From the NCBI GenBank assembly GCA_018654255.1, contig JABILX010000004.1, positions 186,001 to 250,000 on the forward strand: a DNA stretch of 64,000 bases, in the 5' to 3' direction. The DNA comes from Candidatus Peregrinibacteria bacterium. Its GTDB lineage: Bacteria; Patescibacteriota; Gracilibacteria; UBA1369; LOWO2-01-FULL-3. Positions 19,703 to 36,746 of the stretch are shown here, in pieces (within the stretch, counting starts at the first letter, position 1; every line of letters starts with the position of its first letter). The notes below the pieces were generated by a model that was not told the origin of the DNA, searched no databases, and saw only the letters and a program-made list of their open reading frames with translations. A program made the position numbers and the translations under genes.

Positions 19703-21754
19703 ATGAGTAATAATCCAAAGCAAAAGTTTTCGAAACTTTTAAAGTCCCTCCCCGGCAAACCAGGCGTCTACAAGATGCTAAACAAAGGAGGAGACGTCAT
19801 TTATGTTGGCAAAGCAAAAGGCCTCAAGAAAAGAGTAAACCAATATTTCCAAAAATCGAAAGACAAAACCACAAAGACACAAAAACTAGTAGAAAACATA
19901 GAAAACATAGACTACACAGTGGTCGATACGGAGTTAGAAGCATTAATATTGGAATTAAACCTGATAAAAGAGCTCAGACCAAAATACAACGTCTTACTGA
20001 AAGACGACAAGAATTACGTCTACATAAAAATCACAGAGTATGAAGACTTCCCTAGAATTCAAGTCGTCAGAAAAATCGACGACAAAAAAGCCACATACTT
20101 CGGACCAAAAACAGCCAAACACAAAGTAGACAAGACATTCAAGACTCTGAAGAAAGTTCTTCCATTCAGGCACTGCAACCTAGACATTGAAGCAATCAGC
20201 GACAAAGAAGTGCACGTGACAAAAAAAACCATCAAATACCCTTGTTTGGACTACTATATAAAAAGATGCTGCGCTCCGTGCATTTCAAATTGCAACAAAA
20301 AACAATACAGAGAAATTATTGATAACGTTAAAAGTTTCCTAGAAGGACGACACGAAGACTTGGTAAAGAACCTACGAAAACAAATGGCCACCCTGGCACA
20401 GAGCAGAGATTTCGAAAAAGCAGCAAAACTAAGAGATAGGATAAAAAATATAGAAGAAATCACTGAACGACAAAAAATATCTGACCCAAACAGAAAAGAT
20501 ACAGACATCTTCAATGCTACAACCACAAACGGCAAAGCATTCTTCAATCTATTCCAGATCAGAGACGGCAAATTAATAAACCAAGAAAATTTCATATCAA
20601 AAGCTCCTCAGGAAGATGAACAGGAGATCTTTTCATCATTCCTACTGCAATACTACGAAAAAACAACAAACATCCCAAAGGAAGTATTAATTCCAGTTGA
20701 GCTAGAAGACGCAAGCACATTAGGAAAATTCATATCTGATCAGAAGGGAAGTAAAGTAACAATCCTGAATCCGAAAAGAGGAGAGAAAAATAAACTTTTA
20801 AATCTAAGCCTAAAAAACGCAAAGATTTTTGCAGACAGAAACAAAACTTCTTGGCAAGAAGAGGGAGCGGACAAACAAAAAACACTGAAAGAATTAAAGA
20901 AATTACTTAAATTAAAAGAAAAACCGCAAAGAATAGAATGTTACGACATATCTCATTTATCAGGAGAGGATACGGTTGGATCCATGATTGTATTCGAAAA
21001 AGGCGTGCCAGCGAAAGACATGTACAGAAAATTCAAGATTCGTACGGTTTCACATAAGCCCGACGACTACAAATCCCTAGAAGAAGTCATAACAAGAAGA
21101 TTCAAGAAACTTAAATTAGAAATGAACTTGAAAGATTTCAAATTCAAAAAAGATAAAAAGCAAAATCAATATTATCTACAAGACAAGAAGAAAAACATAG
21201 TCGGCACCATAAACGCGCTGGAAATAAATGAAAAGATTGCAGAAATCAGCAATCTTTTTGTAGATAAAGCTTATAGAGGAAAAAAACTTGGGTACGTACT
21301 AATTACAGAAGCAATTTCCAAGATCAAAGCCAAGAGAATATACATCGCGTGCAAAAAAGAACTAGCAACTTATTACGAAAAAATCGGCTTTGAAGAAATA
21401 AAAACAATACCAAAAGAACTGGAGAAAAAGAGTAACGCTACCTGGTATGCAGCCGACAAATCAAAATTCAAAAAAGACAAATCGTTCTCAAAAATCCCAG
21501 ATCTAATAATCATAGACGGAGGGAAAGGTCAGCTCTCAAGCGCAATAAAAGCTTTGAAGAAACTCAACTTAAAACTCCCAACCATATCAATAGCAAAAAA
21601 AGAAGAAGAAATCTTCACACCAGGCAGAACAACTTCAATAAAGCTAGATAAAACAAATGAAATATTGAAACTCATCCAAAGAAGCAGAGATGAAGCACAC
21701 AGATTCGCAATCACGTACAACAAGAAGCTCAGACAAAAAAAGCTCAAAGCTTGA
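19703..21754 (+). CDS. uvrC: UvrC excinuclease subunit with inserted GNAT-like domain, no HhH C-terminus
   Basis: Nucleotide-excision repair nuclease. The start is ATG 19703 (MSNNPKQKFSKLLKSLPGKP). It has an N-terminal GIY-YIG domain (PGVYKML...VIYVGKAKGLKKRV), a Cys region (CLDYYIKRCCAPC) and a UVR motif (DFEKAAKLRDRIKNIE). The RNase H-like domain has ECYDISHL (Asp415), LIIIDGGKGQLSSA and RDEAHRFAIT. Between ITRRFKKLK and PDLIIIDGG lie about 125 extra residues (474-598) that read as a GNAT acetyltransferase: SNLFVDKAYRGKKLGYVLI and YYEKIGFEEI. The protein ends at RQKKLKA, right after the nuclease core. The usual C-terminal helix-hairpin-helix pair is therefore missing. All three catalytic positions survive. 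Confidence 0.95.
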   Translation: MSNNPKQKFSKLLKSLPGKPGVYKMLNKGGDVIYVGKAKGLKKRVNQYFQKSKDKTTKTQKLVENIENIDYTVVDTELEALILELNLIKELRPKYNVLLKDDKNYVYIKITEYEDFPRIQVVRKIDDKKATYFGPKTAKHKVDKTFKTLKKVLPFRHCNLDIEAISDKEVHVTKKTIKYPCLDYYIKRCCAPCISNCNKKQYREIIDNVKSFLEGRHEDLVKNLRKQMATLAQSRDFEKAAKLRDRIKNIEEITERQKISDPNRKDTDIFNATTTNGKAFFNLFQIRDGKLINQENFISKAPQEDEQEIFSSFLLQYYEKTTNIPKEVLIPVELEDASTLGKFISDQKGSKVTILNPKRGEKNKLLNLSLKNAKIFADRNKTSWQEEGADKQKTLKELKKLLKLKEKPQRIECYDISHLSGEDTVGSMIVFEKGVPAKDMYRKFKIRTVSHKPDDYKSLEEVITRRFKKLKLEMNLKDFKFKKDKKQNQYYLQDKKKNIVGTINALEINEKIAEISNLFVDKAYRGKKLGYVLITEAISKIKAKRIYIACKKELATYYEKIGFEEIKTIPKELEKKSNATWYAADKSKFKKDKSFSKIPDLIIIDGGKGQLSSAIKALKKLNLKLPTISIAKKEEEIFTPGRTTSIKLDKTNEILKLIQRSRDEAHRFAITYNKKLRQKKLKA

Positions 21755-21808: not shown

Positions 21809-22171
21809 ATGGACAAAGCTAGCTTCCAAGAATTCTTAGGACTAAGACCGGTAGAAAAAAACACTATGAGAACGACTATGTTCAAAAATTTAGCAAAAGA
21901 CCTAACAGCCGAGGAAAGAGTCGCTCTTGAAAAAGATCTCCTTGTAGTACTCGAAATGCAAGGAAATCCAGGACACGAAGAATACACAGGTGGCCCCAGA
22001 GACAGATTGATTAAAATGTGTGAAAGACAGGGGCTGCAATTCGACAAACTACTGTTGAGTTTAGACCTGTGCAGGACAGAGGGAGGCATGATAAGCCAAT
22101 TGTCACTAAACATCTCTCCAATTAGAGAAGAAATTACGAGAGTTTTTGCACATCCATCTGTCGATCAATAG
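21809..22171 (+). CDS. Unrecognised 120-aa protein
   Basis: I do not recognise this gene. It encodes a soluble, mostly helical protein (MDKASFQEFLGLRPVEKN...) with charged helices and no signal peptide or membrane segment. The stretch GNPGHEEYTGGPRDRLIKMC is the only Gly/Pro-rich part. It has a plausible promoter of its own. The 3' end overlaps the convergent thiI by 38 bp. Codon usage looks like that of its neighbours, so it is likely real. Confidence 0.6.
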   Translation: MDKASFQEFLGLRPVEKNTMRTTMFKNLAKDLTAEERVALEKDLLVVLEMQGNPGHEEYTGGPRDRLIKMCERQGLQFDKLLLSLDLCRTEGGMISQLSLNISPIREEITRVFAHPSVDQ

Positions 22172-23315
22172 ATTCCTGTATAATCCCACCTATGTCGATA
22201 TGTTTCTCGGCTTCCAGAACTTCTTCGAGCGAAGCTGCGACCTCAGGACTCTTAGGCATAAAAAGAGAGCACGTATCAGTACACGGTAAAGCCGATATAT
22301 CGTGAGTACCAATCTTTCTAGACTCGTCGATTATCTCTCTCTTATCGAAACCTATCAACGGTCTGAAAACAGGAAAATCAATGCTCCTATCTATAGCGAC
22401 CATATTCTTGAGAGTTTGAGAAGCGACCTGCCCAAAACTCTCTCCAGTTATCAAAGCTTTTGCTCGAAATCTATACGCTGCTTTCTCAGCAATCTTTAAC
22501 ATCAGCCTTCTATACAGAACAACTAACAATTTCTTTGGAACACCGGTATTCATAGACAACTCCTTCTGAATCTTTCCAAAAGGAATAACTATCAATTTAG
22601 ATTCTCCCTGGTATTTAGTCAGAATTTTTGCAATTTTTTGAACCTGATTCAATTCGTCTTTTTTAGAATAAGGTTGGCCAGAAAAATGAATAAAATCCAC
22701 TCTAGCACCTCTTCTCATCATCTTGAAAGCAGCCACAGGGGAGTCAAACCCAGAAGACAACAAACAAAGTAATTTTCCACCAGTCCCAACTGGCAAGCCA
22801 CCGAGACCAGGTTTCTTACCAAAAGCTATGTACGCCTTGTCAGCAAAACACTCTACAATAATAGGAAGATCTGGCTCCTTCATCTTAACCTTCAGGTCAA
22901 TCTCATTCACAAGCAACGCCGCGCCAAATTCTTTTTCCGATTTAAGTCTTTCAAAAGGAAGGGTCTCCTGAGATTTTTTGATCCGAACATTGAAAGTTTC
23001 GTATTTCCCATCCTTTATGCGCGCAATAGAGTCGACCAAAGCTTTCGAAATCTTATCAAAATCTAATTCAACCATCTGGGCAATCAAAAAATATTCAATT
23101 CCAGCAACCAGCCCAACCGCTTCACAAATAACCTTTTCATCAAACTCCGCAGGTATCCTCACTATAAACCTGCCCAAAATATAATTAATCTGAGTCTTCA
23201 CACCAATATCCCTCAAAACTCTCATTAGATTTCTTTTCAAAACATCTTCAAAATACCCCTTATTTCCTCCTTTCAGTCCAAGCTCCCCGTAATGTACAAT
23301 CAGGTGTTTACCCAT
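22134..23315 (-). CDS. thiI: tRNA 4-thiouridine synthase ThiI (no rhodanese domain)
   Basis: Makes s4U at tRNA position 8 using sulfur from a cysteine desulfurase. The true start is ATG 23315 (MGKHLIVHYGELGLKGG). The frame continues upstream into the tRNA-Leu gene, but that part is an artefact. Order: NFLD/THUMP region (about 1-165), then a PP-loop ATPase with LLSSGFDSPVAAF (usually SGGIDSP) and a conserved Cys in ALPCTDTCSLFMP. At 393 aa it matches the Bacillus-type ThiI without the C-terminal rhodanese domain. It lies 18 bp downstream of a tRNA, one of its potential substrates, and is probably co-transcribed with it. Confidence 0.93.
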   Translation of the reverse strand: MGKHLIVHYGELGLKGGNKGYFEDVLKRNLMRVLRDIGVKTQINYILGRFIVRIPAEFDEKVICEAVGLVAGIEYFLIAQMVELDFDKISKALVDSIARIKDGKYETFNVRIKKSQETLPFERLKSEKEFGAALLVNEIDLKVKMKEPDLPIIVECFADKAYIAFGKKPGLGGLPVGTGGKLLCLLSSGFDSPVAAFKMMRRGARVDFIHFSGQPYSKKDELNQVQKIAKILTKYQGESKLIVIPFGKIQKELSMNTGVPKKLLVVLYRRLMLKIAEKAAYRFRAKALITGESFGQVASQTLKNMVAIDRSIDFPVFRPLIGFDKREIIDESRKIGTHDISALPCTDTCSLFMPKSPEVAASLEEVLEAEKHIDIGGIIQESIDRQMDVQKLS

Positions 23316-23333
23316 AACGAGCTTGTTATTTTC

Positions 23334-23420
23334 TGGTGCCCAGGGAGGGAATTGAACCCTCACTCCCTTGCGAGAACGGGATTTTGAATCCCGCGCGTCT
23401 ACCAGTTCCGCCACCTGGGC
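23334..23420 (-). tRNA. tRNA-Leu (anticodon CAA)
   Basis: The minus strand reads GCCCAGG at the 5' end and CCTGGGC-A-CCA at the 3' end: a 7-bp acceptor stem with encoded CCA. The anticodon stem-loop is CGGGA-TTCAAAA-TCCCG, giving CAA for codon UUG. The T arm is AGGG-TTCAATT-CCCT. A long variable arm marks a class II tRNA. Total 87 nt including CCA. U8 is present, the ThiI target position. Confidence 0.97.
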
Positions 23421-35153: not shown

Positions 35154-36746
35154 CTACACATTTTTATACTGATACAATTCCCCATCATTGAAGCCCAATT
35201 TTTTATAATATTCACGGACCCCCACCCCACTGATCACAACGAGCTTAGACAAACCTTCTTGTTTTGTCAACAAAGCGACTTTCTCGATTAATTGTCTACC
35301 ATAACCCTTGTGTTGGCTCGCTTTTTTGTCTTTTCCAGATATAGAAATGTGCTCACCGAAAACATGTAATTCACGGATAACCGCAGCATCACGAAGATCG
35401 GCCATCCAATGCTTTTCACCCGAGAAATGTTGGGACGGTACTCTTAGTCGAACATAACCTATCAATTTGTCGTTTTCAACATCCTCAAAACTCACAAAAA
35501 ACTCTTTCCCAGAAGAAGACTTGTATTCTCTTACAACTAACTCAGCTTTTTTAACAACATCGCTTTTAATCTCCCTACATCTTATACATTTACATTTTTT
35601 ACCTTTTTTCTTCATTTCTTCTTGGACATATTGCCTGAGGTTAGAAACCTTACTTCCCCCAATAATACTCTCGGCCGGAATATCTCGATATAACCGAGTT
35701 ATCCTACAATACTCAGGAACTTTCTCTTTAAATTTAACAAGTAAATCAATCAACTCTTTGTCAGCATATGGTTTGTGCCCACCATCTCGATAGATTTTCT
35801 CCAAAGGAGAATAAGGAACCACCACACAAGGATATATTTTCAACCAATCAGGCTTGTATAATTCGTTATCAAAAAGCTCAGAAAACATCTCAAGGTCCTT
35901 CTTCTTGTTGCTTCCATACATATTCGGCATGAAGTGAACGTTTATCTTGAAACCAGCATCCTTGAGAAGCTTCAGAGATTCCTGCACTTCCTTAACACCA
36001 TGCCCTCTCTTGTTAAGCTTATATATATTGTCGTCCAAACACTGGACTCCCAGTTCAACCTTGGTAACCCCAAGTTTACGGAAAAATTTCAAAGACTCCT
36101 CGTCAATATAATCAGGCCTAGTCTCTATAGAAAGTCCAACGCACCTGTTATTGGCCTTCTCATTTTTTCTCTGAGCCTCATCGAGAGACCTTTCTTTCTT
36201 TCCATCACCATAATCATAATTCAACCCATTGTAGACTCCTTTTACAAAATTCCTCTGATAAGCTTTTGGGTAAAAATTAAAGGTTCCACCAGAGATAATC
36301 ATCTCAATCTTGTCGGTACGATGTCCTGTTTTTTGAAGACCTTTCAATCTAGAAACCACCTGTCTGTACGGATCAAAATCATTCAAAATAGCACGCATTA
36401 CGGCGGGCTCATTGCTCAAATAGCTTTTGGGCATATCGGGTTCCTTTGGACAATAGATGCACTGACCAGGACAAGCATAATCCTTCGTTATAACAGTGAT
36501 AGAAGCAATCCCCGAAGTACTCCGCACTCCCCTCTTTCTTATCAATTTCTCAAACCTCAAATCAGGTTCGAGAACACCTCCATCAACAAGCTCGTTGTAA
36601 GCTCTTACAAGCTCAATACTTGTTAGAGACGAGATTTTGTATTCACTCGAGTAGACGTTCTTTAATTTCTGCAAAAATCTTCTGTCAGAAATTTCATCTC
36701 TAATAGCTTGTTTAACAAATTTTTTCGCTATATGATCTATCTGCAT
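35154..36746 (-). CDS. Elp3-type tRNA U34 carboxymethylation enzyme (radical SAM + GNAT)
   Basis: Elp3 uses acetyl-CoA and a SAM radical to make cm5U at wobble uridine 34. The 530-aa protein has an N-terminal helical region and the radical-SAM CX3CX2C motif CPGQCIYC (Cys92, Cys96, Cys99), with GGTF after it. It has a Zn-type KCKCIRCREI linker and a C-terminal GNAT domain with ELHVFG, GYGRQLIEK and YYKKLGFNDG. Full-length Elp3 is standard in eukaryotes and archaea but rare in bacteria. The divergent neighbour 31 bp away is a Trm9-like methyltransferase that would complete mcm5U. No mnmE or mnmG is in this window. Confidence 0.93.
   Translation of the reverse strand: MQIDHIAKKFVKQAIRDEISDRRFLQKLKNVYSSEYKISSLTSIELVRAYNELVDGGVLEPDLRFEKLIRKRGVRSTSGIASITVITKDYACPGQCIYCPKEPDMPKSYLSNEPAVMRAILNDFDPYRQVVSRLKGLQKTGHRTDKIEMIISGGTFNFYPKAYQRNFVKGVYNGLNYDYGDGKKERSLDEAQRKNEKANNRCVGLSIETRPDYIDEESLKFFRKLGVTKVELGVQCLDDNIYKLNKRGHGVKEVQESLKLLKDAGFKINVHFMPNMYGSNKKKDLEMFSELFDNELYKPDWLKIYPCVVVPYSPLEKIYRDGGHKPYADKELIDLLVKFKEKVPEYCRITRLYRDIPAESIIGGSKVSNLRQYVQEEMKKKGKKCKCIRCREIKSDVVKKAELVVREYKSSSGKEFFVSFEDVENDKLIGYVRLRVPSQHFSGEKHWMADLRDAAVIRELHVFGEHISISGKDKKASQHKGYGRQLIEKVALLTKQEGLSKLVVISGVGVREYYKKLGFNDGELYQYKNV

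Follow-up and report, generated by a model that had tools for sequence, protein, structure and literature searches.

The uvrC gene of a Candidatus Peregrinibacteria bacterium encodes a UvrC whose 5′ nuclease domain is interrupted by a GNAT-type domain. The gene lies in the window, by which we mean the whole stretch of 64,000 nucleotides that was analysed. We favour, with a probability of roughly 0.6, an old in-frame GNAT insertion into a permissive UvrC loop, whose product would have stayed an enzyme in most descendants and decayed in about a third.

A GNAT-type domain within the UvrC nuclease

The features of the window gene are as follows.

19703..21754, +: uvrC gene with inserted GNAT domain, 683 aa, single unbroken frame
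19760..19990, +: GIY-YIG (3′ incision) domain, residues 20-96 (Pfam PF01541, 7.7e-13)
20357..20458, +: UVR (UvrB-binding) motif, residues 219-252 (Pfam PF02151, 1.2e-8)
Residues 266-377: N-terminal RNase H-like piece of UvrC
20897..21121, +: RNase H-like 5′ nuclease, first half (PF08459, piece 1; fold 8b0q, Z 24.7)
20945-20947, +: D415 of the 5′ nuclease, in the first half
21104..21496, +: inserted stretch, residues 468-598, EEVITRRF to PDLIIIDGG (aligned to 89 other loci and T. maritima UvrC)
21131..21475, +: GNAT fold proper, residues about 477-591 (model, DSSP, length comparison)
21275..21292, +: candidate acetyl-CoA pyrophosphate-binding loop RGKKLG, residues 525-530 (motif columns of the alignments)
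21374..21376, +: presumed catalytic tyrosine Y558 (ATYYEKIGF), invariant column Y91 of alignment A3
21464..21712, +: RNase H-like 5′ nuclease, second half (PF08459, piece 2)
21515-21517 and 21698-21700, +: D605 and H666 of the 5′ nuclease, in the second half

The uninterrupted frame, the kept UvrC catalytic residues on both sides of the insert and the short connection of an ordinary UvrC at this place had all been claimed in the original prediction, and all three hold. The UvrC_RNaseH_dom of Pfam is found as two pieces, one on each side of the insert; they end and resume at residues 469 and 597 in the window protein, against a separation of 1 residue in T. maritima UvrC (..81 / 83..). D415, D605 and H666, which we take to be the metal-site residues of the 5′ nuclease, are retained, and D/D/H is present in 121/123 UvrCs of a wider set, the remaining two ending before the His. 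The insert had been placed at 21122-21496, correct to within 6 residues of the aligned stretch. Because the residues DKSFSKI at its end belong to a UvrC-type junction, present also in GNAT-free UvrCs (L003, L161 and L163), the GNAT fold proper is shorter than the inserted stretch.

The whole protein scores above the cut-offs of both TIGR00194 (1.8e-160, 535 bits; cut-off 285) and NF001824 (464.9 bits; cut-off 451, with only 589/652 of the model covered), so the missing C-terminal helix-hairpin-helix (17 residues follow H666) does not alone exclude it from UvrC. A tail of at least 60 residues, corresponding to this helix-hairpin-helix, occurs in 59/121 UvrCs and in none of the 27 of the window's family (f1), with 14 changes across the UvrC tree.

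The GNAT identity proposed for the insert is borne out by three Pfam models that each exceed the gathering score when the full protein is searched (Acetyltransf_10, 5.9e-11; Acetyltransf_7, 2.3e-9; Acetyltransf_1, 6.1e-9), and by the best solved structure found by sequence, the GNAT 3d8p (1.1e-6). The acetyl-CoA loop of GNATs follows the pattern Q/R-x-x-G-x-G/A. The window loop has K at the first G of this pattern, like many relatives, and 3d8p reads RNLKIG at the same place. We assign a catalytic role to Y558 from the known role of that Tyr in GNATs. Named acetyltransferase families were considered and rejected: the protein reaches no NCBIfam acetyltransferase cut-off, and RimI (S18 N-acetyltransferase, TIGR01575) gives 29.8 bits, under its cut-off of 86.4.

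Predicted structure of the nuclease and its insert

An AlphaFold2 model of residues 258-683, made with 22 relatives from named records, has a mean pLDDT of 85.2 and a pTM of 0.66, with pLDDT mostly at or above 90 across the insert. In a Foldseek search with the model, C-terminal halves of UvrC head the ranking, followed by GNATs. With VIA-align 2 the model superposes on UvrC 8b0q (Z 24.7, rmsd 1.6 over 164), and its fold Z against UvrC 2nrt is 23.5; the UvrC nuclease is thus predicted to fold normally around the GNAT insert. The insert itself (model 220-334, residues 477-591) aligns with GCN5 5trm_C over 113 residues (model 221-334; Z 14.7, rmsd 2.2), giving in the model the GNAT fold that the original prediction had proposed.

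Compared with the canonical GNAT order of strands and helices, the modelled insert follows the order from strand beta2 onward. Helices alpha1-alpha2, which in GNATs usually contribute to the acceptor site, are missing: by DSSP of the model, strand 223-227 is followed directly by strand 232-236. We therefore claim the window insert as a GNAT-type domain and not as a complete GNAT. Ahead of the acetyl-CoA loop it has 57 residues, whereas the other 69 loop-intact copies have 68-150; among all 70 it is the most reduced.

Distribution of the insert

A UvrC match was found in 98/99 relative genomes, from which 90 UvrC loci were fetched. All but one of these (89/90) have at least 101 aa at the insertion point; only L003 falls short, with 18 aa. 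Within the window's order the insert stands at the same point in 81/81 UvrC loci (in L005 and L012 across broken frames), which rules out both an assembly error and a chance match. The named relatives (23 loci) comprise 16 Peregrinibacteria, 2 Peribacteria, 2 Gracilibacteria, 2 Nitrospirae/Nitrospirota and 1 labelled only "bacterium"; the Nitrospirae/Nitrospirota labels probably belong to misnamed bins. These names, together with the recoded TGA, suggest that the class is the Gracilibacteria of GTDB.

A profile of the insert and its flanks (A2) matches 180/353 genomes of the class at 1e-12, a count of matches that were not all examined singly and whose scores are boosted by the flanks. At least 10 of the 180 genomes have copies that stand alone or lie in a gene other than uvrC (G103, G105, G123, G143, G171, G195, G198, G219, G328 and G333). 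A search of a further 80 class genomes with A6 gave 1 match, which suggests that few roaming copies of this GNAT subfamily exist beyond the UvrC clade. An iterated profile recruited 113/118 inserts of at least 40 aa at 1e-3, where flank residues within the inserts (KYL.., DxSF) may inflate the scores of the most decayed ones. In one UvrC, L089, there are two GNAT-like units.

Of 379 genomes drawn from the phylum, 36 match, only 2 of them outside the class and both of family f52. The nuclease domain was found in 79/80 genomes outside the class and is split at the GNAT insertion point only in G370 and G406; in G477 it is split at another place, and in G389 and G487 it is partly seen. The nuclease domain is present in 57 of 67 class genomes that were picked for having no GNAT match; families with TGA as a sense codon mostly have it unsplit.

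Loss of the active site and selection on the insert

To compare active sites we used a set of 123 UvrCs from in and around the class, which omits partial frames or proteins that are not full UvrC (L005, L012, L117, L122, L132, L134, L135) and L093-L115, mostly repeats of genomes already included; alignment A5 was made without L112. Scoring the acetyl-CoA loop as intact by the pattern [RQ]....[GAS] in an automatic alignment, with L144 and L145 borderline, gives 70 GNAT inserts with an intact loop and 40 with a lost one. The others are 5 UvrCs without an insert, 3 unclear cases, 2 GNATs of another sort, and one each with a nucleotidyltransferase, a hydrolase and DUF559. On a UvrC tree built without the insert, the loop changes between intact and lost up to 16 times.

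The catalytic tyrosine is present in 67/70 loop-intact inserts against 13/40 loop-lost ones, so that loop and tyrosine occur together in 67 of the 110 GNAT-type inserts, as they do in the window copy. Averaged over 10 independent contrasts (starred branches), the state of the tyrosine agrees with that of the loop in 6.6, runs against it in 0.0 and shows no difference in 3.4 (median p 0.03, range 0.004-0.22). Structural residues stay, the G of GF in 107/110 inserts and the Y of KRxY in 108/110. From this co-loss beside stable structural residues we infer that the active site tends to persist or vanish as a unit while the fold remains.

The insert dN/dS, computable in 15/22 pairs and with dS near saturation in most pairs, ranges from 0.028 to 0.411, a span that covers both the loop-intact and the loop-lost class. 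The insert dS is below 1 in three pairs (0.038, 0.075 and 0.078), the last two from a loop-lost lineage. Amino-acid changes are faster in the insert than in the rest of UvrC in 21/22 pairs. The insert DNA is under purifying selection in loop-intact and loop-lost groups both.

The UvrC loop as an insertion slot

Other domains occupy the same loop in several relatives.

L008 (G093): nucleotidyltransferase (Aminoglyc_resit, 1.7e-6)
L069 (G095): RBBP9-like alpha/beta hydrolase (Ser_hydrolase, 7.5e-12)
L121 (G331): DUF559 (8e-35), with a 34-nt inverted repeat near the insert ends
L120 and L128: GNATs of another sort (1e-12 and 2.4e-16)

Family f21 includes L008, L120, L121 and L128 together with two UvrCs that have a 12-aa loop (L152 and L154). 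With mixed inserts beside such short loops, insertion in this family looks recent and repeated. Family f19 contains two UvrCs without a GNAT (L155, 24 aa; L163, short), which either lost the domain or never acquired it. Outside the class, the loop holds a coiled-coil-like stretch in L159 and repeat-like stretches in L160 and L161, as judged by eye; the latter two resemble translated palindromic elements.

Relatives of the UvrC GNAT were also found inside RecG of G195 and G219, where the frame of G219 is broken upstream of the GNAT, and inside LeuRS of G171. In this LeuRS (L165:1-2850, -) the GNAT and a NUDIX domain (6.4e-13) are both inserted around the editing domain. Thirteen genomes selected around the two RecG cases, whose fractions are not rates, comprise 6 with an unbroken RecG, 4 with DUF559, 2 with GNAT and one (G196) without a recognised full RecG. 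The DUF559 endonuclease-like domain of these RecGs (G171, G194, G198 and G218; L184-L187) lies in-frame after the Walker A region, with matches of 2.4e-32 to 5.5e-35 and with inverted repeats (20-23 nt) close to its ends. Terminal inverted repeats thus accompany the DUF559 inserts (L121, L184-L187); around the GNAT inserts of L120, L128, L165, L166 and L168 we found no convincing terminal repeats.

A wider pattern may lie behind these cases, a proposal that we make tentatively and at somewhat less than even odds: Gracilibacteria would recurrently drop small enzyme domains, in-frame and free of splicing, into surface loops of essential repair and translation genes, and the UvrC GNAT would be the instance that reached fixation across a large clade, was used as an enzyme and was later switched off in many branches. 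If so, the UvrC loop received a GNAT, a nucleotidyltransferase, a hydrolase and DUF559, RecG a GNAT at one place and DUF559 at another, and LeuRS a GNAT and NUDIX.

Proposed origin of the insert and alternative explanations

Under the favoured reading, a small GNAT domain that uses acetyl-CoA would have entered a permissive surface loop of the UvrC 5′ nuclease domain in-frame. This would have happened far back, and probably a single time, in a forebear of the Peregrinibacteria/Peribacteria section of what GTDB calls the class Gracilibacteria. In most descendants it would still be an enzyme, with acetyl-CoA loop and catalytic tyrosine retained together; about a third would have a decayed active site in a domain that still folds and acts as no more than a scaffold or annex. 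The loop would be a general slot, in which sister lineages carry other, unrelated enzymes. Intact copies might acetylate something near the repair complex, most likely a protein amine, whether on UvrC, on UvrB or on a neighbour, as an accessory to incision that is not required for it.

The single gain is a parsimony guess on a UvrC tree weakly supported at depth. The GNAT of family f52, outside the class, counts against one gain. In a GNAT tree, which omits L089, L078, L079 and the 40 lost-loop rows, the UvrC GNATs form no one supported clade relative to the free-standing copies, and the deep forks are open and the branches long.

Because loop and tyrosine occur together in so many inserts and in the window copy, a working acetyltransferase is plausible in many lineages. 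The 40/110 inserts that lost the loop within an intact surrounding UvrC mean that acetylation cannot be a general repair requirement. The repeated loss of the loop speaks against an essential role, GNAT acetylation not being needed for UvrC to persist; that loop and tyrosine share one fate speaks against a role as bulk only.

This last point bears on the best-surviving alternative, which we consider rather doubtful: that the loop is a pure insertion slot which takes any compact domain, the GNAT being kept for bulk, solubility or protein contact, with a chemistry not linked to repair. It draws on the nucleotidyltransferase, hydrolase, DUF559 and other GNATs in the same place (L008, L069, L121, L120, L128), on the coiled-coil-like and repeat-like stretches of other classes (L159-L161), and on the 40/110 inserts still retained and selected without the acetyl-CoA loop. 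Against it, bulk alone does not predict that loop and tyrosine should be retained jointly in 67/110 inserts and lost together over independent contrasts.

Coupling of acetylation to repair, as the original prediction suggested, is possible on the sequence evidence. In its strong form, the domain would sense acetyl-CoA or acetylate UvrC, UvrB or DNA-bound proteins and so switch incision. The position of the insert within the nuclease domain itself, the intact active site in most lineages and the single above-cut-off match each for UvrA, UvrB and UvrC in the window's genome are in keeping with such a switch; it is made unlikely by the many lineages in which UvrC stays although the active site has gone, and by the absence of helices alpha1-alpha2 from the window copy.

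Still less probable is a fusion of convenience, in which UvrC merely carries a housekeeping acetyltransferase. PF00583 occurs at only three places in the genome (the insert, an Elp3-like protein and a weak 229-aa frame), and the best NCBIfam resemblance is to RimI, far under the cut-off, both of which agree with such a fusion. An assembly error can be dismissed, and so can an intein-like element spliced out of the protein: the insert is a complete fold with selected residues, recurs across many independent assemblies, and no self-splicing domain is among the Pfam matches of the window UvrC.

Comparison with known proteins

The window protein shares with the UvrCs of known structure (2nrt, 8b0q) the GIY-YIG, UVR and RNase H-like nuclease domains and D/D/H. 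It differs from them in about 130 added residues between the RRF-ending helix and the strand PDLIIIDGG, and in lacking the C-terminal helix-hairpin-helix. With the GNAT superfamily (GCN5 5trm, 3d8p) the insert shares the predicted fold and the tyrosine ahead of the GF turn, and its RGKKLG stands at the place of their acetyl-CoA loop; in contrast to these proteins it sits inside another enzyme, without alpha1-alpha2, and 40/110 relatives have lost the loop.

BEAN and HABAS, lineage-specific insertion domains of RNA polymerase that are polyphyletic and occur also in unrelated host proteins, resemble the UvrC GNAT as lineage-specific domains inserted into a conserved machine (PMC11515920); the abstract of that paper does not present them as enzymes, whereas the UvrC inserts are enzyme folds and their host is a repair nuclease. 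Deinococcus UvrC has a clade-specific insert of 16 aa in a surface loop (PMC5867870), which is short and forms no domain; we do not equate its loop with the GNAT slot. Two further papers, PMC10853773 and PMC9023881, were set aside, the retrieved portions of both being unrelated to UvrC fusions. Among the papers listed by searches of the open-licence PMC literature, none reports in its title or abstract an acetyltransferase domain within UvrC.

This clade, in which the catalytic domain of a universal repair nuclease has kept another enzyme folded into it, offers a natural experiment: about 70 copies that have an acetyl-CoA loop and 40 that lack it, set in UvrCs alike in other respects, allow a direct test of an effect of acetyl-CoA chemistry on bacterial nucleotide excision repair. 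The slot, with different enzymes in sister lineages, offers a case of how proteins acquire inserted domains.

Other features of the window

The protein that we name Elp3-like, from its radical SAM and GNAT features, is encoded at 35154-36746 (-, 530 aa) and is one of the three PF00583 places mentioned above. A tRNA gene at 23337-23420 (-, Rfam) is overlapped by the mechanical ORF of a thiI-like gene at 22134-23414 (-), whose real start lies further in. Directly downstream of uvrC is a small frame of 120 aa (21809-22171, +).
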